IMG/VR virus record: IMGVR_UViG_3300006919_012269
Span: 1-23,649 of that record
Source of the DNA: a virus
Length of the DNA stretch: 23,649 bases
Reading direction: 5' to 3' (one strand)
The position numbers and the translations under genes are program-made. The notes beneath the pieces are model-generated. The model saw nothing but the letters and a program-made list of their open reading frames with translations, did no database searches and had not been told where the DNA came from. This document shows, one piece after another, positions 1,630-23,009 of the stretch; positions within the stretch are counted from its first letter, which is position 1, and the number at the start of each line of letters is the position of its first letter.

Positions 1630-2789
1630 TTTATATTTCCAATTATATCTGATACCATGTTTATTTCATTATGAAGACTTATTGAATCGTTTCCAATAAA
1701 AAAACCATTTTCGTGAAGATCGTCGGCGGCTTCGAATGTTCCTACGCTATCCCAATTTAATCTATCTATAACTGGGTTCTTCATAAAGTTGCCAGCAACA
1801 ATAGGTCTTGTTTCTACGCCGCAATGTGTAAGAATATTAATTACTTCTTTGCGCCTTCCTTTTAAATGATCTTGAAGAACAAGCCCAAAACCAAACCAAC
1901 TGCTTATACCAATTTCTTTTTGTAATCTTACTCCTGATATTTTTTGAAATGATTCTACTGCATGCCACGCATTTTTGCGTCGGCCGAGCAACATATCAGG
2001 CCACTTCTTTAATTGTTCCTGTCCAATTGCACCACTCATTTCTAAAGGGCGTACACAGTATCCCGGGAGTATGAACTTAAAACTATCTTCAAACGGATCA
2101 CCTGATTTTTTATATAATGGACTATCGTCTGCCATATCTCGTATCCAACCATGAGCACGTAAACTTTTTAAATATTCATATGTAAGCGGATCATCCGTTA
2201 AAACCATGCCACCTTCCATTGTTTGCATATGATGACTAAAGAAGAAACTAAACGTACCCATTTCACCAACAGATCCACATTTAAAGTTATATTCAGTTGA
2301 GGCTCCTAAACTTTCACAATTATCTTCAAGAAGAATGATATCATGCTTATCACACAACATTTTTAAATCGTGAAGATTTGATGAATTTCCTAACAAATTT
2401 ACAGTAAAGATTGCGGCCGTATCTTCGTCAATAGCTTCTTCAACTTTATTCACATCTATGTTAAATGTATAAGGATCAACATCAACAAAACGAAGTTTAT
2501 ATCCCCATTGGTGTACAGGAAAATAAGTTGTGCTCCAACTAACTGCAGGAACAATAATATTTCCTTTATTTTTATATTTTGGATTAAGTGCTAAAGATGC
2601 AATCGTAATTAGGTTTGCGCTGCTACCACTATTTGTCATAACAGCATAATTGCTATCAAAGAATTTAGCAAACTGTTCTTCAAAAGCTTTTACTTGTTCA
2701 CCCATAGTATAACGGCCGCTTTCAATTACGCGTTGAATTGCGTCAACTTCTTCCGATCCCCAAGTATCGCTCGCCAATCTATATTTCAT
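1626..2789 (-). CDS. colD: DegT/DnrJ-fold 3-dehydratase, ColD type (GDP-4-keto-6-deoxy-D-mannose 3-dehydratase)
   Basis: A 387-residue PLP enzyme of the DegT/DnrJ/EryC1/StrS fold. It follows E. coli ColD closely as I remember it: LAS.TW near the start, YTMGEQVK, SGSSANL, PAVSWSTTY (81-89), VNLLGN, LLEDNCES (153-160), and FILPGY.VRPLEMSGAIG. Ordinary members hold PLP through a lysine; here the corresponding stretch reads SHHMQTMEGG (185-194), with His where Lys is expected, which is the hallmark of ColD and of the CDP-sugar dehydrase RfbH. RfbH also carries an Fe-S cysteine set that I do not see. It should remove the 3-OH of GDP-4-keto-6-deoxymannose, using glutamate and PLP. Placed between the aldolase and gmd genes with 4-base overlaps. 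The dehydratase call is strong; the exact sugar is inferred from gmd. Confidence 0.87.
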   Translation of the reverse strand: MKYRLASDTWGSEEVDAIQRVIESGRYTMGEQVKAFEEQFAKFFDSNYAVMTNSGSSANLITIASLALNPKYKNKGNIIVPAVSWSTTYFPVHQWGYKLRFVDVDPYTFNIDVNKVEEAIDEDTAAIFTVNLLGNSSNLHDLKMLCDKHDIILLEDNCESLGASTEYNFKCGSVGEMGTFSFFFSHHMQTMEGGMVLTDDPLTYEYLKSLRAHGWIRDMADDSPLYKKSGDPFEDSFKFILPGYCVRPLEMSGAIGQEQLKKWPDMLLGRRKNAWHAVESFQKISGVRLQKEIGISSWFGFGLVLQDHLKGRRKEVINILTHCGVETRPIVAGNFMKNPVIDRLNWDSVGTFEAADDLHENGFFIGNDSISLHNEINMVSDIIGNIK

Positions 2790-3580
2790 TTACTTGCCTC
2801 TTTAATCATATGAATGTTTTTAGCAATAGCGTAATTAAATTCAGTTCCTTGCTGATGCGCGTATAAACCTTCGCTTAATGCTCTACTAAAACTGGCAGAC
2901 ATGCCGTCTTGTTTAGATAATCTTTCACATGCTTCTTTAGTACTATAGCCTCCACTTAAACCAACGACACTATGTACTTTATCATGCTTCATAATATCTT
3001 TATAAAAATTTGGCTGTTCTGGTAAAGTAAGTTTAAGTGTACACTTCCCTTTAAATTGATCTAAATATTCTGATAACTTCTTAAGTAATAAGTCTTCTAC
3101 TTTTTGTTTTTGATAATGGTCAATTGGAATTTCCGGTTCAACAATTGGCATTAATCCTTTATTGTTAATTCCTTCAGCTAAAGAAAATTGCTGTTCTAAT
3201 ATCATATCCATTTGATCTATATTTTTTACAATACTTCGCATTTTTGTTCCAACACAATTGTTTTGAATAGCAAAGTCACACATCTCTTTCCAATCAAATG
3301 TTTTTAAAGAACCGTTTCCTTCACACCCACTATCTATTTTTAGATATGATTTAATACCTTTTGTTTTTAATATTGGTACCATACCTCTTTCAACTGTATC
3401 TTTATAAAGTATGGCTGCTCTAATATTGTCACTTATAAAATCTGGTGATTGCACCATACGCAACCTCATCTTATGAACAAGATCCATTTTATTTTGTTCA
3501 GTATAAGGTTGTTCATAACGATCTAAAACGCCGCCTGTAGAACCGCCACTATGATCCATCGCTGCAATAAATGTAGTCAT
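2786..3580 (-). CDS. Class I fructose-bisphosphate aldolase
   Basis: A 264-residue (beta/alpha)8 class I aldolase of the bacterial FdaB type (usually about 296 aa). Visible family segments are AAMDHSGGS (6-14), GTKMRS (111-116), MPIVEPEI (144-151), the Schiff-base strand TLKLTLPEQPN with K183, VVGLSGGYS (205-213) and SASFSRALSEGL (228-239). It interconverts fructose-1,6-bisphosphate with dihydroxyacetone phosphate and glyceraldehyde-3-phosphate, without a metal. The gene follows PEPCK by 6 bases and overlaps the colD-like gene by 4 bases, so the two central-carbon enzymes sit directly upstream of deoxysugar enzymes. That suggests the gluconeogenic direction. A role in building an unusual sugar by aldol addition is an alternative. 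Confidence 0.93.
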   Translation of the reverse strand: MTTFIAAMDHSGGSTGGVLDRYEQPYTEQNKMDLVHKMRLRMVQSPDFISDNIRAAILYKDTVERGMVPILKTKGIKSYLKIDSGCEGNGSLKTFDWKEMCDFAIQNNCVGTKMRSIVKNIDQMDMILEQQFSLAEGINNKGLMPIVEPEIPIDHYQKQKVEDLLLKKLSEYLDQFKGKCTLKLTLPEQPNFYKDIMKHDKVHSVVGLSGGYSTKEACERLSKQDGMSASFSRALSEGLYAHQQGTEFNYAIAKNIHMIKEASK

Positions 3581-3586
3581 TTTATT

Positions 3587-4783
3587 TCATCCTTTAATTA
3601 AATCTTCAAGTGTTTTTAACACATTTTCGCTGTCATCCGCCACATCTAATTCAATCGCGGACTTAATACATTTTCTTGTAAAGTCTAAATCAAATCTTTG
3701 GCCTGACATATCCATTCCTGTATTAATTAAATACACATTACAATTATTTTCTTTTATCTTTTGCATTAATAAGTCACTATATTCACTTATTTTACGCGGC
3801 ATAAAAGGAGATCCATAACACGGACTAAATAATGGTTTTATTTCTTCGGAGCCAGCTTCAGTACCTGGCATTTGACTTGTATATCCGGTTTCAAAAAACC
3901 GTCTTATTGTTTCTCCACTTATTTTACTTGAAGGTGGAAACACTCCTTTTGCATCCATAGTTAAAAAGAATATATTATCTGGATGATTAAATTGTTGTGG
4001 CTCATGATATGCATTTTCTACACAATTAATAGGATAACTTAAACGTGCATTTGATAACCCAGGATTTTCAATTACTAAAGTTTCACGGCTACGAGCTAAT
4101 TCAACAGCATCAAAAATTGTTTTATGAGTTTCTGGTGTAAGACCTTCTGATTTTGCATAACAGCCTGTTTCAACCATTTGAATGCCGTTATGATTCCATA
4201 ATACTTCGTCATCACTGATAAGTTGATAGTCAGGATCGCTACTAAGAGTTGTCTTACCTGTACCACTTAAACCAAACATAAGGTTTGTTGTATTATCAAA
4301 TGTGAAAGCACTGCAATGCATTGGTAAAATATTTTTTGGAGGTGTTTCAAAAGAAATAATTCCAAATACACCTTTCTTAATTTCTCCAAGAAAAGTAGTG
4401 CCACCAATTAACATCACTTGCTCGTCTAAATGAACATAAATGTACGGTTCATCAACTTTCATTTCTGTATTGTGTATTATTGTCCAATCAGCAGTGTGAT
4501 TAAGAGGATCATCTACAACCGTGAACATATTACGAACAAATTGTGCATGTCTATCATCGTTTGTTTTAACGCGGAAACACATACCTGAGGTATAGAAAAC
4601 TAAATTATGATTATAGTCCATTAGATCCATACGCATATGCATTACTTGGTAATCCATTTCGTTACCAATTTTATTGTATTTTGGTCTAGATAAATCTAAA
4701 GCTTCATGTGCTTTGCTTCCAAAAAAATACTTATTTTCAGGCGACCGTCCTGAAGGGTTTGTACTAATTTCAATATTACTCAT
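3587..4783 (-). CDS. pckA: Phosphoenolpyruvate carboxykinase (ATP type), compact form
   Basis: A 398-residue PEPCK that makes phosphoenolpyruvate from oxaloacetate with ATP. The core is complete: GRSPENK with R13, GGTTFLGEIKKG (127-138) with the two lysines, MHCSA with H156, the P-loop GLSGTGKTT (171-179), ISDDE (189-193) with the metal-binding Asp, ETGCYAK, ARLSYPI with R247, and the lid and adenine-site segments GTEAG and GQRFDLDFTR. The position of E. coli Tyr207 is Phe131. Against E. coli PckA (540 aa) about 50 N-terminal and roughly 60 C-terminal residues are missing. I start it at 4783, where AGGAG lies 7 bases upstream; an in-frame upstream ATG at 4870 lies inside the previous gene. 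It overlaps that gene by 8 bases. Phage-encoded PEPCK is not among the common auxiliary metabolic genes I know. Confidence 0.95.
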   Translation of the reverse strand: MSNIEISTNPSGRSPENKYFFGSKAHEALDLSRPKYNKIGNEMDYQVMHMRMDLMDYNHNLVFYTSGMCFRVKTNDDRHAQFVRNMFTVVDDPLNHTADWTIIHNTEMKVDEPYIYVHLDEQVMLIGGTTFLGEIKKGVFGIISFETPPKNILPMHCSAFTFDNTTNLMFGLSGTGKTTLSSDPDYQLISDDEVLWNHNGIQMVETGCYAKSEGLTPETHKTIFDAVELARSRETLVIENPGLSNARLSYPINCVENAYHEPQQFNHPDNIFFLTMDAKGVFPPSSKISGETIRRFFETGYTSQMPGTEAGSEEIKPLFSPCYGSPFMPRKISEYSDLLMQKIKENNCNVYLINTGMDMSGQRFDLDFTRKCIKSAIELDVADDSENVLKTLEDLIKG

Positions 4784-5108
4784 AAGTTTCTCCTGTTTCA
4801 CGGAAGAAATTTTCACTCCAAAAGGCTTTATCGTCAATCCAAACATCATAGTGTTCTTTTTTACCAACACTTAATTCATGGTATTTTGCGCCCCATTCAT
4901 CTAATTGATTTTTAGTTAATTCGTAATAATCAACTTTACTTACCGCACCCCGCGCAGTCATATATTTAATTTCATGACCTGCGTCGTATAATTTATTTAC
5001 TTTAGCTATACGATCCATCATTGGCTCGTGTTTACTATAATCTTTTTTACCGTTTGGCAAAAGCACTTCTTTACAGATAGTACCATCAATATCAATCACA
5101 TATTTCAT
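4776..5108 (-). CDS. Small HAD-superfamily phosphatase
   Basis: A 110-residue capless HAD hydrolase. Motif I is DIDGTIC (6-12) with nucleophile D6 and acid/base D8, motif II is MTARG (50-54), a lysine for motif III lies at 83-84, and motif IV is WIDDKA (90-95). Similar small HADs occur in capsule and LPS clusters and resemble the KdsC-like minimal phosphatases; the substrate cannot be read from sequence. It starts at a TAATG junction with the preceding glycan gene and overlaps PEPCK by 8 bases. In this place it could dephosphorylate a sugar phosphate: fructose-1,6-bisphosphate (which would complete the gluconeogenic step after aldolase) or a PEP-derived sugar-acid phosphate are the two options I would test. 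Confidence 0.82.
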   Translation of the reverse strand: MKYVIDIDGTICKEVLLPNGKKDYSKHEPMMDRIAKVNKLYDAGHEIKYMTARGAVSKVDYYELTKNQLDEWGAKYHELSVGKKEHYDVWIDDKAFWSENFFRETGETYE

Positions 5109-9622: not shown

Positions 9623-10474
9623 TTATGTCGGGTTATCAACTAATATAATATCAAAGGAAGATGAAATAACTGAACCAGTATCACCAGCTCCTCTCACTTC
9701 AATATCAGTTTTTTCTGGAAAGCGCAAAGGAATTGAATAATTCTGAGTAGTATATCCGCCTACGGTATCTATAATATCCTTTGACCTAAATGGTGCGTCA
9801 CCATCTAATTCTCTTGCTAGTAAAGTCACCGTGACAGCATTATTCATTGGTGCTACGCCAACGTTCCAAGTAGTAAGATAACCAGTCTTTCCAGCTGGTA
9901 TTGTATAAAGTGCAAGTTGAGTTTGACCCAAACCAGTAGTTGTTCCTGTACCAATAACGCCAATATCAGCAAGAACTGTACCGCCTCCAGCTGCTGCGGT
10001 GGATATAAGAATATTACCATCATTTGTCTTTAGCGCCCCAGAAGTCGCAACAAATGCTCTATAAACTCTTAGGAATGAAGCAGTAGAAGCTGCGCCATTT
10101 ACAGTAATCGTTTCTTCAATCAGATTAAAATTATTATCTAAACCTTGAACAGTAATTGTGTGAGCACCATCGTTGCCAGGGCCATCGTCAGAGCTTGCGC
10201 TATATGCATAAACTGTACTATCAGAACCAACATCAAGATAACTATAAAGTCCTCCGTGCATCCAAATAGTTTCTGGTATGTTTCCTACATTTGGATTTCT
10301 ACCAAACTTATGAATATTTGACCATCCGGCAACGTCGCCCGCAGCAATTGGAACATTAGATGCAACTCCAAACGAATTGATAAGATTACCATCTTTATCT
10401 GCCAGCATGAACGCTTCAAATAAAGTTTTATTACCTTGTAAATATGCCTGAGTTGATTTATTCCATATAGCCAT
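9623..10474 (-). CDS. Probable virion structural protein
   Basis: A 283-residue protein rich in Gly, Ala, Thr and Asn with many short beta strands and almost no charged helices, such as TITVQGLDNNFN, VTVTLLARELDG and DIEVRGAGDTGS. It recalls conserved structural proteins of marine T4-like phages with the segment VYAYSASSDDGPGNDGAHTI, which I know from memory only. The pattern suits a fibre, neck or capsid-decoration protein, but no specific role can be named. It is the last gene of the late block that starts at 13957 and lies one base after the stop of the ligase-like gene. Confidence 0.7.
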   Translation of the reverse strand: MAIWNKSTQAYLQGNKTLFEAFMLADKDGNLINSFGVASNVPIAAGDVAGWSNIHKFGRNPNVGNIPETIWMHGGLYSYLDVGSDSTVYAYSASSDDGPGNDGAHTITVQGLDNNFNLIEETITVNGAASTASFLRVYRAFVATSGALKTNDGNILISTAAAGGGTVLADIGVIGTGTTTGLGQTQLALYTIPAGKTGYLTTWNVGVAPMNNAVTVTLLARELDGDAPFRSKDIIDTVGGYTTQNYSIPLRFPEKTDIEVRGAGDTGSVISSSFDIILVDNPT

Positions 10475-10475
10475 T

Positions 10476-11711
10476 TTATCTCTGCCACCCTTTAATGTAT
10501 TGATCTGAAAAATTTGCCCTGCTAAATTGAAGGCGGTCTACTAATTTTAACGCATTCTTTCCATAACGATCAATAGCAACAAATCCTTCCTGTCCTGTTA
10601 CTTCGTAACCACTATTAGTTTTTAATAGTGTTTTGAGACCGCCAACCTTTTCAAGTTTACGCACAACCAAATGTTTAGCGTCTACTATAAGGTTATACAT
10701 AACAAACAAATTCTCAATATCTTTAGGTTTGTTTGTTTTGAAGTATTTCATGGTATCAGCTTTTTTTGCTTCCCATGTTGCTTTTCCTTTGGCAGATTTT
10801 TTTGTAGCAATTTCACTATCATACCAATTATTCAAATAGCTTTGTAATCCGCGAACAAATACTTTAGGATTACCAACACGTTGACCTTCTCGAACCTTTG
10901 TATTGATATAAGTATTTACTCGCATATTAAGTTCTTTATTTGCAGAAGGAAGTAATCCATCAAATGTTTTCTTAGGTATAGAACGGAATAACTTTCCAAC
11001 CTGAGAAAGGATCCTTGTCATTTCTGCAGTTTCAGAGGCAGTCATTGTTGCTGTACCAGATTGATCTTTAAATACCGCATCAACAGACCAAACAGATTTT
11101 ACTTTTTTAAGACCTGAAGCAATCTCCTCTCCAAAACTTGCAGACATTTCTTCAAAGCTTGATCCTCGGTATACTGTATGCCAGACCACTCCGACTTTGG
11201 ATCCGAGTATTTCCTTAGCAAGGTCTGATGATTTAGGTATCGCGTAAACAATCGTATTAGGATGGAAAGTAATATGCGGTTCACCGTCAATCGTATCTTC
11301 TTTAATATCACTTTTTTCATATAGGAAATCACCTTGTACTACGCCTTTGATACCGAGTTTTGAAAACTCATCAAGGGCAATTTTCAATTTTGCATTCAAA
11401 TCTCCACTTGTATCCGCATCAATATCAGCGTGCGTTTTATATACTTTTGGGTTCTTGTTAAAAATACCTTTTTTGGCTACAAAGAATTTTCCGTCGCTTG
11501 GATCTGTTCCAGCAAATACAGCTGGTGCTCCATCCCATTTAACACTAATGTTAACAGAAGACTTTGTATTACTTGACAGCATATCTCTAATATCTCTAAG
11601 ATAATTAATCACATTTCTTGTACCAAGTATTCCGCCGTCAATAACTGCATCCTCGGCGTGAGTCATGTGTAGGTTTTTATCTTCAGCTATGAACTTCTTG
11701 AATGTTTTCAT
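10476..11711 (-). CDS. Head-targeted nucleotidyltransferase/ligase-like protein
   Basis: A 411-residue protein. The first ten residues, MKTFKKFIAE, match the T4 capsid-targeting sequence of internal proteins IPI-IPIII (MKTYQEFIAE) at 7 positions, with the IxE cleavage site of the gp21 prohead protease. The body shows an ordered set of motifs resembling the covalent nucleotidyltransferase (polynucleotide ligase) superfamily: KWDGAPA with K58 (motif I, KxDG), VVQGDFL at 124-130 (motif III-like), VVWHTVY near 174-180, EGFVAID at 375-381 (motif IV) and LKLVDR at 388-393 (motif V). Similar conserved proteins occur in marine T4-like phages, usually without a function. The motifs are spread over an unusually long core, so activity is unproven. 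It overlaps the EF-hand gene by 4 bases. Confidence 0.72.
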   Translation of the reverse strand: MKTFKKFIAEDKNLHMTHAEDAVIDGGILGTRNVINYLRDIRDMLSSNTKSSVNISVKWDGAPAVFAGTDPSDGKFFVAKKGIFNKNPKVYKTHADIDADTSGDLNAKLKIALDEFSKLGIKGVVQGDFLYEKSDIKEDTIDGEPHITFHPNTIVYAIPKSSDLAKEILGSKVGVVWHTVYRGSSFEEMSASFGEEIASGLKKVKSVWSVDAVFKDQSGTATMTASETAEMTRILSQVGKLFRSIPKKTFDGLLPSANKELNMRVNTYINTKVREGQRVGNPKVFVRGLQSYLNNWYDSEIATKKSAKGKATWEAKKADTMKYFKTNKPKDIENLFVMYNLIVDAKHLVVRKLEKVGGLKTLLKTNSGYEVTGQEGFVAIDRYGKNALKLVDRLQFSRANFSDQYIKGWQR

Positions 11712-11953
11712 TTGTAAGCAACACCTTTACGAGTATGTTTAAGTTCGCCTGCATATTTTTTCATCATTTTAGGCGTTTGATTTTGCTTTTCAGCGCCACT
11801 AATTTCATCAGGGGTTATTTTATCGAACTCATCTACATCGCCGTCATTATCTTTATCAAATCCACGGTCTTTAATAGCGTGTTTCAAAGATTTCGTGGGA
11901 TCTAATGCATGGGCGATTTTCTTTTCACTAATGAATTTTTTAAAACTTAACAT
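11708..11953 (-). CDS. Head-targeted small EF-hand protein
   Basis: An 81-residue protein. MLSFKKFISE at the start resembles the capsid-targeting sequence found on the proteins encoded on both sides, again with an IxE cleavage site. After a basic linker comes one canonical calcium-binding loop, DKDNDGDVDEFD (34-45: Asp at 1, 3, 5, 9 and 12, Gly at 6), followed by ITPDEISG. The C-terminus is basic (MMKKYAGELKHTRKGVAYK). It could bind Ca2+, whose level differs between sea water, capsid and cytoplasm. Its ATG lies within the end of the 351-aa gene (14-base overlap). No enzymatic role is suggested. Confidence 0.8.
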   Translation of the reverse strand: MLSFKKFISEKKIAHALDPTKSLKHAIKDRGFDKDNDGDVDEFDKITPDEISGAEKQNQTPKMMKKYAGELKHTRKGVAYK

Positions 11954-12995
11954 TTTTACTTACCTTAATTACTGGCTCTACTCCAAAAAATGACAAGACG
12001 TTTTTAATTTTTCCAGAAATAAACGATTTTGCTTTTTTAAGTGCTTGACCAAATGTTCCTTTAATACGACTAATAACGTTTTTAAACATTCCTTCTTCGA
12101 GCTCAACTTCTTCTTTAAGTTTAGCATCAACGATTAAAGAAATAACTGACCAAAAATTGTACTCACCTGTTTTAACATTTTTAAGTTTACGTGATGATGT
12201 TTTAAATCTTGCTTGCAGTTTCATTGCATCAGCAATCTTTTTACAATATGCATCATCATAAACAGATGTGATTTTTGTTGAAGATCCGCTATGATCCGAA
12301 ACCACCATAAACTCTGCGGCTGAATTACTGTCTTCACCGTACTTCATAAATCCTGACATTGCTTCACGAGCAAACTCAATCTTAAACTTTTCGTTTTCTT
12401 CAAATAAAGTTCCAAGTTCAGACATAATCTGTTTATGTGCAGCTTCGCCGCGGTTTACTAATTCATTTTCACGAGATTTGATTAACGGTCTTAATTGTGT
12501 TGGTGCAACTGAAGCCGTAACAAAATCTTCAAAAATACCTAACACTTTTTTCAATTGAGGAGAATCTTTTACGTTTGCTTTTTCCATTGCTGCATAGAAA
12601 GTTGCGGTTGATTCTGCCTTACCACCTGACATTAATTGAGCCATTCCAATCTTTAACGATAATCTTTTATCACCAATTAGAATATCAGTTTTTGGAGTAG
12701 TATCGGTCGCACCATAACCACTCCAAAACGAAGTAAGTTTTGACTTAGCACGACCATACTGTTCTGCTTTTACATTATTACCTAATTTGAAATGATCTTT
12801 AATTGATTGTGCAATTTTTTTGCCTGCCTCAACGTATTGTGGTTGAGCCATGATACTATCATATACTTTTTGTGAAATACCAGCAGCCTCAGGATTAATT
12901 TTCTGTCCTGTGATTTCGTGCCAGCCAATAACAATCGCCGCTTCAAAATCTTCAGCTTTAATTGCTTCTGTAATATATTGCTTAAAACCTATCAT
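11940..12995 (-). CDS. Head-targeted PD-(D/E)xK-like protein, possible nuclease
   Basis: A 351-residue protein beginning MIGFKQYITE, a third relative of the capsid-targeting sequence with an IxE site. Near residue 100 the text TPKTDILIGDKRLSLKIG has Asp104 and Lys115 in the order D-x(10)-K with SLK, which fits the PD-(D/E)xK nuclease core with Ser in place of the acidic residue; AQLMSGG follows. The rest is largely helical. The C-terminal 50 residues are a basic, amphipathic stretch (FKNVISRIKG, KKAKSFISGKIKN) that could bind DNA or membranes. It follows the 320-aa gene by a one-base overlap of stop and start. A restriction-like nuclease is likely on motif alone, not certain. Confidence 0.65.
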   Translation of the reverse strand: MIGFKQYITEAIKAEDFEAAIVIGWHEITGQKINPEAAGISQKVYDSIMAQPQYVEAGKKIAQSIKDHFKLGNNVKAEQYGRAKSKLTSFWSGYGATDTTPKTDILIGDKRLSLKIGMAQLMSGGKAESTATFYAAMEKANVKDSPQLKKVLGIFEDFVTASVAPTQLRPLIKSRENELVNRGEAAHKQIMSELGTLFEENEKFKIEFAREAMSGFMKYGEDSNSAAEFMVVSDHSGSSTKITSVYDDAYCKKIADAMKLQARFKTSSRKLKNVKTGEYNFWSVISLIVDAKLKEEVELEEGMFKNVISRIKGTFGQALKKAKSFISGKIKNVLSFFGVEPVIKVSKNVKF

Positions 12996-13957
12996 TAGAT
13001 TTCCGTTGCCCTTCTACTAGTTATAAAGTCATATGGATATATTCCACTTCTTGCGTTTCTTACAATAATATCCTGATGACTTGTTGTTCTTCCATTTCTA
13101 TAAGTTGTTGCAAATATTGCTTGATATTCACCTCTAAAAGCCCAAGTTAAATCATCGGCTGTATGTATAGATTCCGAAAAAGTAAGTTTATATGAACCGT
13201 CATTATTTCTTGTAAGTATTGGTGCTCCTTGTCCTATACAATGAACGCTTTCTCTGTTAAATGTGGCACCATTATTCCACATTGGCCCATATACAGATCT
13301 GCCTACAAGATTCCTTCCGGCCGGTGTATCTTCTATTTTCCTCCAAGCACTAAATCCAACTCCTGCTGCCCCATCAATATATTCTCTTGTTACAAAATTG
13401 TTTAGATCTCTTACATATTGCTCAACTAAAATATCCTCATGTATAATTTGTCCAGATCTTAATGAAATTCCACCATATTGCTGATAAGCTCTTGCTCCGC
13501 CTGCTTTCTTATGTGATATAAAACCAACTTCTCTTGTACTATCATTTATTAAAGCAATATCAGCTTTTGGATCTCCTTTGATTTGATCTGCTGCAGCTGT
13601 CACTACATTTTCTACATTATATCTTCCAATTTTAACGCGTATAGGTTTGCCTTCTTGTTCAACTGCGTCCTTTATTACGTCTATCAGTATTTCAGTAGCT
13701 TCCTGCTCAGCCTTTAAAACATTTTTTGTTTTTGGCTTTGCAATAACTTGTGTAGGTCCTATTTGAACAATTCCTAATGAAGAAATATTCAAGGCAGTTT
13801 TATCTCTTACTAATCTTGCACCTCTAAATGCAGACAACGTAATATCAATTGCAGCCTGTCTTTTATCAGTCACTATGGCCATACGATTTCTTGTAATCTT
13901 TTTTATTTCGTATCCATAGACTTCTGCAAGGGTGTTTTCTACATCAGCATATTTCAT
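12995..13957 (-). CDS. PD-(D/E)xK-like conserved phage protein, possible nuclease
   Basis: A 320-residue protein and the first gene of the late block. The central text GDPKADIALINDSTREVGFISHK (128-150, here given as one site) places Asp129/Asp133 before Ser148-His-Lys150, a D-x(n)-(S)xK arrangement like PD-(D/E)xK enzymes; QQYGGISLRSG follows. The neighbouring 351-aa protein has the matching PKTDI...LSLK. There is no capsid-targeting start here (it begins MKYADVENTL). I recall similar phage proteins with DPKADF..ISHK and a following QQ.GG, all without a proven role. Promoter TATAAATA lies 26 bases before the ATG. Confidence 0.62.
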   Translation of the reverse strand: MKYADVENTLAEVYGYEIKKITRNRMAIVTDKRQAAIDITLSAFRGARLVRDKTALNISSLGIVQIGPTQVIAKPKTKNVLKAEQEATEILIDVIKDAVEQEGKPIRVKIGRYNVENVVTAAADQIKGDPKADIALINDSTREVGFISHKKAGGARAYQQYGGISLRSGQIIHEDILVEQYVRDLNNFVTREYIDGAAGVGFSAWRKIEDTPAGRNLVGRSVYGPMWNNGATFNRESVHCIGQGAPILTRNNDGSYKLTFSESIHTADDLTWAFRGEYQAIFATTYRNGRTTSHQDIIVRNARSGIYPYDFITSRRATEI

Positions 13958-13982: not shown

Positions 13983-13990
13983 TATTTATA
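13983..13990 (-). promoter_or_regulatory. T4-type late promoter, TATAAATA
   Basis: An exact late-promoter match on the minus strand, 26 bases before the ATG at 13957 and touching the T run of the terminator at 13990-14015. It would start the head-protein block as soon as the early replication transcript has ended. Confidence 0.75.
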
Positions 13991-14015
13991 AAAAAAGAGA
14001 GGCCGCAGCCTCTCT
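13990..14015 (-). terminator. Rho-independent terminator after the gp41 helicase gene
   Basis: A perfect 8-bp stem AGAGAGGC/GCCTCTCT (13996-14003 and 14008-14015) with a 4-base loop, followed on the minus strand by a run of seven T. It lies 23 bases after the helicase stop codon and closes the replication transcript. Confidence 0.92.
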
Positions 14016-14038: not shown

Positions 14039-15478
14039 TTATTGTAATTCGCCGACTTCAAATAATTTACTTAAAGATTTTTTAGGTTTGTTTAAATCCC
14101 ATTGTTGACCAAATGATGTTTTGTCAAAAGCAGGAGCGTCATCATCTGTATCTTTTGATTTGTTCTTTGCATTTTCTTTTTGTATATTTTTCTGTGCGCT
14201 TTCTTCAAGATTATATATTTTCATTTTAGATCTATCGACTCCTACAACAAATCTACGATAATAATTTAAGTCTCCCCAACGGTTCTTTAATTGTTTAACC
14301 ATTATTTGACTAAGACTGTCAAGTTCTTCAGATGTTATGAGTCCCAGAATACAATCAGCAGTATGAGTAATCCCCATAGACTCGCTAGTATTAGTAAGGT
14401 CCACGTCAGAGTTACCATAGCCATCACGGTTAAACTGAGAACTAGTAACGACAGCACAATTGTACTCCATAGCCAATCCACGTACTTCCTCCGCAATTGA
14501 TTTTACAAGTGTATACGAATTGGCGGCCGCTACACCTTTAACTCGAGCACTTGCACAAATATTTAAATAATCAATAAAAATAATATCAGGTTTAAAGTTT
14601 TTCTTCATACGTAATTCAGTAAGAAGATGGCGGAAATGACCAACGTGAGCAGAACCTGTAGGATATTCTTTTACAACAATTTTTCCCGTGCTTTTACCTT
14701 TTAAACGTTCCATTCTTTTTGTATATACGTCTCTTGGCATTTCTGCAATTTCGTCAATTGTAACATCAAGGAGATTTGCATCAATGCGTTCCGAAATACG
14801 TTCTTCAGCCATTTCCATTGTAATATATAAAACATTCTTTCCCATCATCAATGCAGAAGCTGCAGCATGACATTTAACTAACGATTTACCGCCGCCAGTT
14901 GTCGCTAATAAAACTGTCATAGATTTACGAGGTAAACCACCTTTAGTGATTTTGTTCAGTAATTCAATATCAAATGGAATACGTTCTTCTTTCTTGTGAT
15001 AAAAATCATAACGAGAATTAAAATCTTCAAGATAATCGTGACCGACTGAACTATCAAAACTGATTGCAAGACTATCTTGTAATAAAGCTGGTAAACCGTC
15101 TTTACTTAATTCAGGATCAGATCCATCAACTACAAGAATTGCTTTACGAATTGCATTAAACAAATCACGATCTTGACAAAACTTTTCAGTTTCTTTAATT
15201 AACCATTCCTGATCTGTATCATTATCACGTTTTAAGTTATCAACTTGAACCATGACTTCTTTATACATATCTTCGTTCATATCTTTACGTTTATCAAGCG
15301 TAAGTTTGAGAACCTCAACAGAAGGAGGTTCTCGATATTCTTCAACATACTCGGAATATGCTGTAAATATTTTTTTATGCTCATTACTTTCAAAGTAATC
15401 TATTTTAAGATATGGATATACTTTTCGAAAATAATCTTCATTAAATACTAGGTTTGATAATACAGTTTTTTCAATCAT
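14039..15478 (-). CDS. 41: Replicative DNA helicase, T4 gp41 / DnaB type
   Basis: A 479-residue RecA-fold hexameric helicase that unwinds DNA at the phage fork. The N-terminal 150 residues are the helical collar region; the motor domain has Walker A ATTGGGKS (192-199), the TMEMAEERI segment (220-228), Walker B IIFIDY (299-304), and VVTSSQFNRDGY with the sensor Gln and arginine of the DnaB family. The last 60 residues are polar and charged with KSLSKLFEVGELQ at the tip. Its ATG overlaps the end of uvsX by 8 bases, so it is translated with the recombinase. The gp59 loader that T4 gp41 needs is encoded upstream in this window. A possible extra promoter lies inside uvsX (15598-15625). Confidence 0.95.
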   Translation of the reverse strand: MIEKTVLSNLVFNEDYFRKVYPYLKIDYFESNEHKKIFTAYSEYVEEYREPPSVEVLKLTLDKRKDMNEDMYKEVMVQVDNLKRDNDTDQEWLIKETEKFCQDRDLFNAIRKAILVVDGSDPELSKDGLPALLQDSLAISFDSSVGHDYLEDFNSRYDFYHKKEERIPFDIELLNKITKGGLPRKSMTVLLATTGGGKSLVKCHAAASALMMGKNVLYITMEMAEERISERIDANLLDVTIDEIAEMPRDVYTKRMERLKGKSTGKIVVKEYPTGSAHVGHFRHLLTELRMKKNFKPDIIFIDYLNICASARVKGVAAANSYTLVKSIAEEVRGLAMEYNCAVVTSSQFNRDGYGNSDVDLTNTSESMGITHTADCILGLITSEELDSLSQIMVKQLKNRWGDLNYYRRFVVGVDRSKMKIYNLEESAQKNIQKENAKNKSKDTDDDAPAFDKTSFGQQWDLNKPKKSLSKLFEVGELQ

Positions 15479-19221: not shown

Positions 19222-19859
19222 CTAATTTGTTCTTCCTCCGTTTTATATTGCCATTCATCAGTATGACCAACAGACCATTTTGGAGTTGTTTCAACACAAT
19301 AATTTTGAGTACATACTTTAAAGTCAGGTCTTTGTAATTTATCAGGAATTAGTGATTGATCACTCCAAATTACTCTATTATTTGGTTGTGCTGCAAACTG
19401 TCCGTTGTCAAGTCTAATGATATTGAATGATTTGTGCTCGGGATCGTGCTCACTGAAATTGGTATCAATGATGGAACGGTCACGATGTGCATTGTCGATC
19501 GTGAAGCAGTATTCTCCGGGATGCATCCTTTTGTCTTTGCCAAAGAATTCACAACGAGACAAAAGTGGTTTTTGTATGACGGTAATGTCGTAGTCGAAGC
19601 AATCCCAAAGCTGAAGAACATCAAGAGGAAGAAGCTCGCCATGATCAGTTTTCCATAAGAATGCTGAAATAGGTAACTTGTCATATAATGCCCCGTAATC
19701 TGTTAATAGAGTTTCAAAATATAACGCCTTTCCCATTGTAGATTTAACACTAATCCAAATTCCAGGAGTTAATTCACCATGTCCTTTTTCCAAATTATAA
19801 AGATATTCTTTACGTACATATACACTAATTGGCTGTAATGTGTGTACTAAAAAAGCCAT
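19218..19859 (-). CDS. Unknown protein coupled to the bilin reductase gene
   Basis: A 213-residue protein without a family I can name. It starts with a short hydrophobic strand (AFLVHTLQPISVYV), has a strand-rich middle (ELTPGIWISVKS, ITVIQKPLLSRC) and ends acidic and polar (DEWQYKTEEEQIS). Cysteines are few; no metal or nucleotide motif is seen. Its ATG overlaps the stop of pcyX by one base, so it may be made with the bilin enzymes, but nothing shows a part in that pathway. About 19420-19650 is richer in G+C than its surroundings (about 40-47 percent by count per 60 bases), which suggests a piece of different origin. Confidence 0.75.
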   Translation of the reverse strand: MAFLVHTLQPISVYVRKEYLYNLEKGHGELTPGIWISVKSTMGKALYFETLLTDYGALYDKLPISAFLWKTDHGELLPLDVLQLWDCFDYDITVIQKPLLSRCEFFGKDKRMHPGEYCFTIDNAHRDRSIIDTNFSEHDPEHKSFNIIRLDNGQFAAQPNNRVIWSDQSLIPDKLQRPDFKVCTQNYCVETTPKWSVGHTDEWQYKTEEEQIS

Positions 19860-20542
19860 TAGATCTCCTCGAATAATACGTCGTTTACGTAACGATCTTT
19901 GTTTTCTTCCGATATTCCCATTGCCAAGATTGATCTATGCAGATGGGGATTTTTCTTTTGATTAATACAGTATCTATTTAAAAGTGGTGTGGTGTCCCTG
20001 CCATTATCCCAAGAGTTTTTTTCAAGGTTCTCTAAATAATAATCTGTTAAATGATATGTAATGTCAATGAATAGATTTAATTCTTCTTCTGTGTTTATAT
20101 TTCCAACGGCAATCATATTAGATGAAAATATTTCTTGCGCCCAATTTGGTAATTCTCTTGCTTTTATCCATTTAACGTTTTTTGTTATATTTTCCATATA
20201 TTCATTATATGGGTGCGGAAAACCATGTAATGGGCTATAATCCATAAAAGATCCTGTGATCTTTTTAGGCCCGGCAACAATATCAAATCCTAATATTGGT
20301 AATTCAATTCCTGGTTTTGGAAATACATTAATATGCATTAACCAAAGACCCTTGCCGTCTTGTGGTGTGATTGTTTTCAAATGAGCTTTTTGAATTTTGT
20401 CAGAATACCAAAAATCGTCTTTCCAACCGGAAAACTTTAAACTATCGTCGTATTTTGGATTATCATATTTTATGAAATATTCATCAAACTTATTTGATAT
20501 TTGTGTAGCATAATTATTTAACCTATTCCATAGGGGTGTCAT
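19859..20542 (-). CDS. pcyX: Ferredoxin-dependent bilin reductase, PcyX-like
   Basis: A 227-residue FDBR of the PcyA branch; it reduces biliverdin IXa with electrons from ferredoxin. It aligns by eye with Synechocystis PcyA: HLKTITPQDGKGLWLMH against HLELAKVGKGLDILH, then FPKPGIELPILGFDIVAG against FPEPLYGLPLFGCDIVAG, and a C-terminal HYC/RYC...RY...VLF segment. The His corresponding to PcyA His88 (in LMHINVFP) and the Asp corresponding to Asp105 (FMDYSP) are kept, while the Glu76 position in HLE is Lys (HLK). Glu76 is needed for 18-vinyl reduction in PcyA, so a PcyX-type product, phycoerythrobilin, is expected. The heme oxygenase gene that makes its substrate is next to it. Assignment to PcyX rather than PcyA is inference. 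Confidence 0.85.
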   Translation of the reverse strand: MTPLWNRLNNYATQISNKFDEYFIKYDNPKYDDSLKFSGWKDDFWYSDKIQKAHLKTITPQDGKGLWLMHINVFPKPGIELPILGFDIVAGPKKITGSFMDYSPLHGFPHPYNEYMENITKNVKWIKARELPNWAQEIFSSNMIAVGNINTEEELNLFIDITYHLTDYYLENLEKNSWDNGRDTTPLLNRYCINQKKNPHLHRSILAMGISEENKDRYVNDVLFEEI

Positions 20543-20702
20543 TTTTAATATATTTCTTTACTATATATACAGTATCGTGATTTCCATGCCATTCAAGAGT
20601 GTCGCCTTCCTCCCAACCTAATTGATCTAAAAGATCTTCAGGAAGTTCTACGTAAAGATCTTCAGAATCTTCATACTGTTTGACCGTTGATGTCCAATTC
20701 AC
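20523..20702 (-). CDS. Small AbrB/SpoVT-like acidic protein, GTG start
   Basis: A 59-residue protein filling the space between the heme oxygenase and pcyX genes. It starts at GTG (20702) with GGAGG 9 bases upstream, inside the end of the heme oxygenase gene (32-base overlap), and overlaps the start of pcyX by 20 bases. The centre, VELPEDLLDQLGWEEGDTLEW (18-38, in parts: LPEDLL, LGWEEGDTLEW) with a following strand TVYIVKK, is the pattern of short AbrB-like swapped-hairpin proteins. Such small proteins are frequent in marine phages as I recall. DNA binding is possible but unproven. Confidence 0.75.
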   Translation of the reverse strand: MNWTSTVKQYEDSEDLYVELPEDLLDQLGWEEGDTLEWHGNHDTVYIVKKYIKNDTPME

Positions 20703-21249
20703 TGAAATAATCCTCCAATTCTTCTAAGAATTTTTGTACCATACTAAAGCATACTTTTGCTTCTTCTGCCAAGTTATTATGTAATTTTGATCGAATGATA
20801 TCTTTAAGAACAACAGGATCACCATCAAATTCATATAAAGCAGTTGGGCCTGGAACAAGTTTTTTAATTATTTGGCCTCCTGATAAATCACCCATATGAC
20901 GCACATACACGTGAGCAAGCAATTTATCTTTATCATCTTTTATTTGTCGAATATAATTTACATAATGATGTGATGCCGAAAAGATAGGAGCATCAGAAAA
21001 CTTTTGTTCTGTTTCCATTGTAATTACATCATTAAATAATGCAGCACCCCTTAATATAGGTTCCATGTCTTTTGTAATAGCACCAGCTTCAGTTGCATAA
21101 TATTCAAGATTTGTGTATGAAAATAATTGATTTTTAAGATATACGTAATACTCGTAAGGACTAATTTTTTTCTTTATCATTCTACTCATAAAAGCAGTAC
21201 GTTCTGCTCTACGGTGTTCTTGTTTTGTGATTTCTCTCAAACTATCCAT
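20671..21249 (-). CDS. ho1: Heme oxygenase
   Basis: A 192-residue biliverdin-forming heme oxygenase. From the ATG at 21249 it begins MDSLREITKQEH with His12 as the proximal heme ligand in the usual LRE.T...H context. The distal-helix signature is HVYVRHMGDLSGGQ (113-126). It oxidises heme to biliverdin IXa, CO and Fe2+ with electrons from ferredoxin. AGGA lies 8 bases before this ATG; an in-frame ATG at 21279 has no ribosome site. An early promoter lies 58-86 bases ahead. Together with the FDBR gene downstream it forms a heme-to-bilin pathway. Release of iron is an alternative benefit to the phage. Confidence 0.94.
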   Translation of the reverse strand: MDSLREITKQEHRRAERTAFMSRMIKKKISPYEYYVYLKNQLFSYTNLEYYATEAGAITKDMEPILRGAALFNDVITMETEQKFSDAPIFSASHHYVNYIRQIKDDKDKLLAHVYVRHMGDLSGGQIIKKLVPGPTALYEFDGDPVVLKDIIRSKLHNNLAEEAKVCFSMVQKFLEELEDYFSELDINGQTV

Positions 21250-21304
21250 TCGTGGATTCCTAAATAATCCCACGAACATAATCGTAAGATGTTTATCAAT
21301 AATT

Positions 21305-21335
21305 TATTTATAACACAGATAAATGTAGATGTCAA
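21305..21335 (-). promoter_or_regulatory. Promoter of heme oxygenase gene, early type with late element
   Basis: On the minus strand TTGACA (21335-21330), 17 bases, then TATAAA (21312-21307; 5 of 6). The -10 is the first part of a full TATAAATA (21312-21305), so the same site fits early and late recognition. It lies between the Fe-S carrier gene (stop at 21339) and the heme oxygenase gene. Confidence 0.75.
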
Positions 21336-21338
21336 CTA

Positions 21339-21623
21339 TTAGATTGCAAAACTTTCACCGCAACCACAAGAAGCGGTTGCGTTAGGATTTATTACTTTTA
21401 AATAAGCCCCTCCAAGTTCTTCTATATAATCAATAGTACATCCAAATACAAACATTTCAGCCATAGGATCTAACCACAAGTTTTCAATGGTAGGTTCTTT
21501 ATCCGTAGTTCCCCATTCGTATTGAAAACCTGAGCACCCTCCACCTTTTACTGTTAAAGATATATTTGGTTTTCCAACTTTTTGAAGATACTCTTTAGCT
21601 TTATCTGTAATATTTAAAATCAT
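21339..21623 (-). CDS. A-type iron-sulfur carrier protein (HesB/IscA/ErpA family)
   Basis: A 94-residue protein with the complete A-type signature: Cys30 in VKGGGCSGFQYEW and the CGCGESF end with Cys86 and Cys88 (IscA pattern C-x(~60)-CxC). It carries [2Fe-2S] or [4Fe-4S] clusters to target proteins. The start overlaps the stop of the 52-aa membrane gene as ATGA. In the same region the heme oxygenase and bilin reductase need ferredoxin, an Fe-S protein, so supplying clusters to ferredoxin or to a phage Fe-S enzyme would make sense, by inference. Related genes are known in cyanophages. Confidence 0.93.
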   Translation of the reverse strand: MILNITDKAKEYLQKVGKPNISLTVKGGGCSGFQYEWGTTDKEPTIENLWLDPMAEMFVFGCTIDYIEELGGAYLKVINPNATASCGCGESFAI

Positions 21624-22046: not shown

Positions 22047-22267
22047 TACATTACTCCGTATGTACTCATAATGGCAGGTCCAAACAAACTCATTACCCAC
22101 ATAAGTACCGCAATACTAAATATGCCAATTAGTAACCATTTCATTTTAAAGTCATCTACTTTCATTTGTAAGCCAAGGACTTCATTTCCTAAAATTCTAA
22201 TTGCAAGCTCAAACTTACCTTCTGGATGGTCTATCATTTCAATTGCTTTTTGTTTTTCTTCAGACAT
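22046..22267 (-). CDS. 73-aa single-pass membrane protein
   Basis: A 73-residue protein: a charged N-terminal helix (SEEKQKAIEMIDHPEGKFEL), an amphipathic part, one membrane helix (WLLIGIFSIAVLMWVMSLFG, about 44-63) and a short tail. N-terminal cytoplasm is likely from the positive residues before the helix. It overlaps the lipase gene by 8 bases and the next gene by one base (TAATG). It resembles the common phage membrane proteins of unknown function; a holin-like or gp-r-like role cannot be proven from sequence. Confidence 0.78.
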   Translation of the reverse strand: MSEEKQKAIEMIDHPEGKFELAIRILGNEVLGLQMKVDDFKMKWLLIGIFSIAVLMWVMSLFGPAIMSTYGVM

Positions 22268-23009
22268 TTATATTCTCCTTTGTATACTTGCAATAATGAA
22301 CCATACTATGGTCATACGCGCCATCAAATGGCATTCTCTTTTTTAACGCTGCCCAACGACCGCGCCATTTATCTTTAGTACGCTGCCACTTGCTCATTTT
22401 TCGTATTTTTCCATAGAAGTTGATGTAGCGCGGCGGACAGTGGTGTCTATATCCCATGAAAGCAAAAGGAACAGAAGTGACCATGTCATTATTGTTAACG
22501 TGGCGGAAATGAGGTATGTGAGCAAATGATTTAACAAATTTTTTATTCCCTACTCGTGGCGAGCCGTAAGTAAATAGGCAATCCGGTTCGCGCTCGCCGT
22601 TAATTAAACGGCTAGTTGCAATTGTAGCCATTGCACCACCAAGTGAATGACCACATATGAAAAAATCTTTTTCTGGTAATTTATTAATACCACCTAAAGC
22701 CATCATTATTTTATCCCATAGTTTATTCACTTCCTCTTGGAAACCATTATGTACCATTCCGTGACCATTAAATGCTTTATCAGGCCAGGCATTTAAATCA
22801 GCTTTAATATCTGAGAATTCTCCAGGCTCGGTTCCTCTAAACGCCAAAACAACTTCCGTTTTGTTTGAAGCTAAGTGACATTGAGCGCCATCTGCTTCCA
22901 TAAATTTGTGTTGGGTATAACCTAATCTTTTAAATTCTTTTTTAGCTTCGGGCCCATCCATATAAGCAATCTGGGCGCACTCTGCCATTTTTGCACAATG
23001 CTCGATCAT
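22260..23009 (-). CDS. Class 3 lipase-like alpha/beta hydrolase
   Basis: A 249-residue alpha/beta hydrolase with the lipase class 3 pattern: VVLAFRGTEPGEFSDI (53-68), the nucleophile elbow ICGHSLGGA (118-126) with Ser122, FTYGSPRVGN (146-155), the Asp in NNNDMVTSVPF (D175), and a C-terminal His (H234 in YDHSMVHY). All parts of the triad are there. It cleaves esters, probably of acylglycerols or phospholipids. There is no signal peptide, so it would act in the cytoplasm or reach membranes through lysis. The start overlaps the previous stop as ATGA. The three membrane proteins after it are translationally coupled. Confidence 0.92.
   Translation of the reverse strand: MIEHCAKMAECAQIAYMDGPEAKKEFKRLGYTQHKFMEADGAQCHLASNKTEVVLAFRGTEPGEFSDIKADLNAWPDKAFNGHGMVHNGFQEEVNKLWDKIMMALGGINKLPEKDFFICGHSLGGAMATIATSRLINGEREPDCLFTYGSPRVGNKKFVKSFAHIPHFRHVNNNDMVTSVPFAFMGYRHHCPPRYINFYGKIRKMSKWQRTKDKWRGRWAALKKRMPFDGAYDHSMVHYCKYTKENINV

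Follow-up and report, generated by a model that had tools for sequence, protein, structure and literature searches.

The window analysed here is a complete IMG/VR contig of 23,649 bases from an uncultured virus, a T4-like phage. On its minus strand, the genes for gp32, uvsX and gp41 are followed by a terminator-like hairpin, the sequence TATAAATA and four overlapping genes, which encode proteins of 320, 351, 81 and 411 amino acids (Table 1). The ends of the last three of these open reading frames overlap, as in one operon. The initial annotation had described three consecutive proteins at 10476-12995 that share a ten-residue start resembling that of the T4 internal proteins, and both the coordinates and the sequences were right. 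These are the only three ORFs in the window which match the motif, and the same scan on T4 recovered the internal protein start MKTYQEFIAEA, including that of IPIII. The downstream neighbour of the operon belongs to phrog_8198, which is of unknown function, and it also matches the virion structural protein family phrog_1645 (1e-4), with its N-terminus only.

Table 1 Features of the cargo region and its borders in the window.
Feature	Position	Strand	Evidence or remark
Virion-structural-like protein, untagged, downstream border	9623..10474	-	phrog_8198, 5.8e-87
DUF6267 protein, 411 aa, nucleotidyltransferase/RNA-ligase-like by motifs	10476..11711	-	Pfam 1.6e-108, alignment, AF2
Tag MKTFKKFIAE of the DUF6267 protein	11682..11711	-	Sequence; E10 kept by all 43 homologues; AF2 model disordered over residues 1-15
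81-aa protein with one EF-hand/dockerin-like loop, DKDNDGDVDEFD	11708..11953	-	Sequence
Tag MLSFKKFISE of the 81-aa protein	11924..11953	-	Sequence, fusion relatives
351-aa protein with PD-(D/E)XK-like signature TDILIGDKRLSLK	11940..12995	-	Alignment; weak match to phrog_22045
Tag MIGFKQYITE of the 351-aa protein	12966..12995	-	Sequence, Glu10 test
320-aa protein, first gene of the cargo operon, phrog_13937 family	12995..13957	-	Without recognisable tag
Putative T4-type late promoter TATAAATA	13983..13990	-	25 nt upstream of the start codon of the 320-aa gene
Terminator-like hairpin AGAGAGGCTGCGGCCTCTCT and T run, after gp41	13990..14015	-	Read from sequence
gp41-type DnaB helicase, untagged, upstream border of the cargo slot	14039..15478	-	phrog_19, 2e-123; Pfam DnaB_C

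Elsewhere in the window, at 2786-4870, a gene for phosphoenolpyruvate carboxykinase (PEPCK_ATP, 1.4e-90) stands next to one for a class-I fructose-bisphosphate aldolase, a gluconeogenic pair which is unusual for a phage. A bilin-making set of heme oxygenase, ferredoxin-dependent bilin reductase and IscA-like Fe-S protein genes lies at 19859-21623, and a class-3 lipase gene (Lipase_3, 1e-23) at 22260-23009.

We searched the distinct first-ATG proteins of 106 related sequences, most of them IMG/VR contigs and 1.44 Mb in all, for the tag with the expression M.{1,4}[FY]x x[FYLI][ILVMT]xE. It matched 117 of 1463 proteins, compared with an expectation of 1.97 (maximum 7 in 200 shuffles) for shuffled N-termini and with 4 of 4805 internal Met positions. 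Ordinary N-terminal composition as the source of the motif is ruled out by these shuffling and internal controls. The enrichment of regex matches is a weaker argument than a test which leaves the final Glu unselected: among 106 N-termini picked by M..[FY]..[FY][ILVM], with residue 10 free to vary, Glu occupies position 10 in 96 and Asp in none, while of the 493 places where the pattern occurs internally, 9.5% have Glu at that position. The spacing from Met to Phe is nearly fixed, with Phe at position 4 in 96% of tags, Phe or Tyr at position 7 in 98% and Ile, Leu or Val at position 8 in 95%. The conserved columns are therefore 4, 7, 8 and 10, and all three tags of the window fit them, at the extreme N-terminus. 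Across whole genomes the tag is rare, being found on 5 of 210 genes in C48C1, 4 of 275 in T4 (three of which look real) and 3 of 243 in S-SZBM1, and so does not reflect a general N-terminal bias; the HTVC008M genome contains no strict match.

After removal of the tag, the tagged proteins fall into 29 groups, some of whose single-member groups are probably chance matches. The view of the initial annotation that the proteins are otherwise unrelated is borne out by hhalign, whose best alignment between two cargo families is often that of residues 1-12 with residues 1-12. Its broader statement that the resemblance is not homology holds for the bodies but perhaps not for the tags, which could share an origin as a mobile prefix. 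We considered it scarcely credible that the tags resemble one another without any function, through recombination at the starts of genes or a bias in N-terminal codons. The three 30-nt tags of the window are 60-73% identical in DNA, which would allow for transfer of a module, and cargo genes in the slot described below are often shuffled; however, the wobble positions of the tags agree at only 4-7 of 10 although the residue class is preserved at each of the four key positions, the same four positions are retained across unrelated families, and Glu10 is invariant in 43 tagged DUF6267 homologues in which the neighbouring positions 2, 3, 6 and 9 drift.

Unrelated proteins with one tag are already known among the T-even internal proteins, which have been described as diverse defence proteins with only the capsid-targeting sequence (CTS) in common (PMC3012670; see also PMC9391042, PMC9026906). 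In T4, IPI, IPII and IPIII carry the same ten-residue tag as the proteins described here (aromatic residues at 4 and 7, Ile or Leu at 8, Glu at 10) on unrelated bodies, with plastic gene content. Mutations of the T4 tag have shown that residues 4 and 7 serve mainly for targeting and residues 8 and 10 for processing, and that Asp at position 10 blocks processing (PMC9026906); the columns conserved in our set are thus the positions that matter in T4. Homologues of gp21 were found in Melnitz, HTVC008M, C48C1 and S-SZBM1, and the gp23 sites of related phages, FLSE|AAP in Melnitz, FLGE|IAN in HTVC008M, LLGE|AAP in DLP_6 and FLTE|TGP in C48C1, resemble FLTE|AEI of T4; the window contig is without a head module. 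The T4 internal proteins are small, and IPI* is a known restriction-enzyme inhibitor (PMC3012670), whereas the tagged proteins here reach 411 amino acids, many are enzyme-like, their genes adjoin gp41 and the phages are marine. Pfam and PHROGs comparisons of the cargo bodies in the window returned no homology to the IPI, IPII or IPIII families, and placed them in DUF6267 or in no named family. The inner-body and ejection proteins in the heads of phiKZ and SPN3US are also processed after x-x-Glu, by a protease related to gp21, and are ejected (PMC9026906); these phages are different ones, and so are the propeptides.

Published mass spectrometry of virions is available for S-CREM2, S-SZBM1, S-SCSM1 and S-CRM01, which are neither the phage of the window nor close relatives of it, and detection in such data may also reflect co-purification. 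For S-CREM2, 52 virion proteins have been listed with coordinates (PMC10665884, Table 3), and we mapped all 219 of its proteins against that list. The three proteins with a strict tag, the SAM hydrolase gp6 (MKDFDSFLEE), the kinase gp14 (MKRFDAFLTE) and the cytidylyltransferase gp154 (MKNFSSFLTE), are all in the virion. A relaxed motif adds gp13 and gp136, both virion proteins, and the small proteins gp175 and gp199, which were undetected, so that five of seven relaxed matches are in the particle. The numbers are small, with Fisher p values of 0.013 (strict) and 0.009 (relaxed), the latter falling to 0.0005 once named structural proteins are taken out. The initial annotation had named a motif common on non-virion proteins of the phage as something that would count against packaging; in this genome it is not common on them. 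A looser case is the virion protein gp12 (OR473000 7704-10313), which has RFASFMAEA further in: it and S-CRM01 g128 have related starts with a tag-like segment about 16 residues in (LSLDSFIKEA in g128), which suggests longer propeptides.

In other phages, the virion cytidylyltransferase S-SZBM1_140 starts with MRFRQFIIEA (PMC9146016), the NMNAT of S-SCSM1, which we count as a virion protein from its GenBank 'virion protein' label, with MKSFLQFLKEA (PMC9602691), and the S-CRM01 kinase, reported from virions (PMC10665884), with MISFDQFLSEK. S-SZBM1 also provides a natural control: its DUF6267 protein (_141) lacks the tag, since its sequence opens with MAKNTHLEHLED right behind the place that a tag would occupy, and is absent from the 30 virion proteins detected (PMC9146016). 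T4-like cyanophage virion enzymes found by mass spectrometry, including SAM hydrolase, APH/ChoK-like kinase and NMNAT/cytidylyltransferase, therefore carry the same tag as the proteins of the window, although the cargo of the window phage itself is different (DUF6267, 351-aa and 81-aa proteins). In the parts of the cyanophage virion-enzyme papers that we consulted, these proteins are listed as virion-associated and the packaging signal is unnamed.

The tagged genes are concentrated in one part of the genome. Around DUF6267 (74 loci), the tag is present on DUF6267 itself in 72 of 74 cases, on the gene before it in 56 of 72 and on the second gene before it in 19 of 70, compared with 0 of 109 at positions -4 and -5 and 11 of 255 at positions +1 to +5; no tag stands on any of the 54 members of gp41 or the 36 of uvsX. 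This distribution identifies the interval from gp41 to DUF6267 as a hypervariable slot for tagged cargo, which is occupied by more than 18 unrelated families. Among these are a P-loop kinase (AAA_33/zeta-toxin, phrog_505 polynucleotide kinase), which hhalign aligns with T4 Pnkp at 92.5% (E 4.8e-7), a HAD protein (phrog_415 polynucleotide kinase) for which the same comparison is weak (5.6%), an HD-domain protein, and several families in which inspection by eye shows PD-(D/E)XK-like signatures. Possession of the tag varies within families: C48C1, DLP_6 and Melnitz have tagged DUF6267 proteins and S-CRM01, P-HM2, S-PM2 and S-SZBM1 untagged ones, while the phrog_13937 family is tagged in relatives (L009, L015 and L020) and untagged in the window. 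The Methylophilales phage Melnitz also encodes a tagged homologue of the 351-aa protein. The tag is thus a swappable prefix, and it would mark the slot as a place of packaged cargo in marine T4-like phages. The 320-aa phrog_13937 protein of the window also shows a nuclease-like pattern, ADIALIN..GFISHK. In T4, gene 61.1 (54 aa; AF158101 18966-19130, L171 1467-1631) starts with MKTFKEFIKED, a good match to the CTS, and sits between gp41 and gp61, the interval of the marine cargo slot; it is a candidate for an overlooked T4 internal protein.

The T4 late-promoter sequence TATAAATA is present in the 160 nt that follow gp41 at 25 of 44 distinct loci, but at 0 of 28 after uvsX, its chance rate being about 0.02 per 160 nt. 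Judged from this sequence, late transcription of the cargo operon would fit the timing that head proteins need. The position of the tagged genes next to gp41, uvsX and gp32, and that of T4 61.1, with the same start, between gp41 and gp61, could also be read as pointing to a docking peptide for some other partner, such as the gp41 replisome or a late-gene regulator, with no relation to the head. We regard this as very unlikely: the replication proteins themselves are untagged, tagged virion proteins such as S-CREM2 gp6 and gp14 are encoded far from gp41, and neither the late promoter nor the conserved Glu10, with its cleavage-site logic, is what such a peptide would lead one to expect.

Our preferred reading, to which we assign a probability of roughly 0.84, is that the ten residues are a T4-type capsid-targeting sequence, with which late-made cargo is packaged, cut after Glu10 and injected with the genome. 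The packaging proposed in the initial annotation gains support from the virion data of relatives, and it fits with the late promoter, with the presence of gp21 homologues and with the matching gp23 cleavage sites. The cargo genes would be transcribed late from TATAAATA, and the prohead core would bind the tag through residues 4 and 7, so that the protein enters the prohead. A gp21-type protease would then remove the tag by a cut behind Glu10, and the mature enzyme would stay amid the packaged DNA and be injected together with the genome. The three tagged proteins of the window would be packaged and cleaved in this way.

Entry into the prohead could also have another end, in which the tagged proteins act merely as assembly or scaffold helpers in the core and are degraded or expelled rather than delivered. 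Most T4 core proteins are indeed cut up and leave the head (PMC9026906), and the small tagged S-SZBM1 proteins _191 and _192 were undetected in virions, where only 30 proteins were detected (PMC9146016). On the other hand, tagged enzymes persist in the mature virions of S-CREM2, S-SZBM1 and S-SCSM1, and enzyme-like bodies which change from phage to phage suit an interaction with the host better than a role in assembly. We therefore consider the helper role improbable, and delivery of the cargo the better account.

The cargo of the slot appears mostly to act on nucleic acids, and would include ligase-like, nuclease-like and polynucleotide-kinase-like proteins, HAD and HD hydrolases and nucleotidylyltransferases. 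The DUF6267 protein matches PF19782 over residues 13-402 with 363.8 bits (gathering cut-off 27). It contains the motifs KWDG (58-61), QGD (126-128) and EGFV (375-378), and in the 43-row alignment KxDG, as motif I, and EGxV, as motif IV, are invariant or nearly so. Its AF2 model has a pLDDT of 83.6, with the tag region disordered. The top matches of the model in BFVD are DUF6267-like phage proteins, and the first clear outsider is an RNA ligase (E 1.4e-3, prob 0.98). A Foldseek search of the PDB found nothing significant, with RNA and DNA ligases among the weak matches only, and hhalign gave no support for a relationship to T4 Rnl2. We assign the protein with moderate confidence to the ligase-like nucleotidyltransferases.

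In the 351-aa protein, D104, S113, L114 and K115 are invariant in the alignment, an arrangement like that of PD-(D/E)XK enzymes, although membership is unproven. The protein has no Pfam or PDB match, and PDB sequence searches with its alignment and that of DUF6267 found nothing. Its AF2 model, built from 19 rows, was too poor (pLDDT 45) and was set aside. No isolate phage has a match to the 81-aa protein, which was found at only 14 loci in IMG/VR. At L177/L178 and L182/L183 its domain forms a fusion with the C-terminal portion of a nucleotidylyltransferase; this nucleotidylyltransferase family is the one seen in virions, and the L182 fusion bears the tag MINSFKNYLVEE. With a tag of its own or as part of a tagged fusion, the domain would thus reach the same compartment by two routes.

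A possible role for the slot as a whole can be offered only tentatively, and we think it less probable than the packaging itself. The late, hypervariable island between gp41 and gp61 may encode a CTS-tagged cutting and mending kit which is injected and acts before any phage gene is expressed. Its members would be the nuclease-like proteins, the Pnkp-like kinase, the HAD phosphatase and the ligase-like DUF6267 protein, and it might, speculatively, act against defences that cut DNA or tRNA, or open the host chromosome.

In a limited literature search, confined to titles and abstracts, we found no paper on the 'capsid targeting sequence' that concerned cyanophages and none that linked the two. 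The novelty lies in carrying the tag over to T4-like phages of the sea, in the enzymes that it marks as cargo, in the slot and in a link to virion proteomes that allows prediction. These phages probably inject ready-made enzymes with their DNA. If our reading is true, a ten-residue signature, visible in the sequence alone, predicts which of the many uncharacterised proteins of abundant marine phages travel inside the particle, and it would explain by what mechanism enzymes such as the kinase, the SAM hydrolase and NMNAT come to be detected again and again in cyanophage virions. It would also identify the recombination slot where packaged cargo is exchanged.
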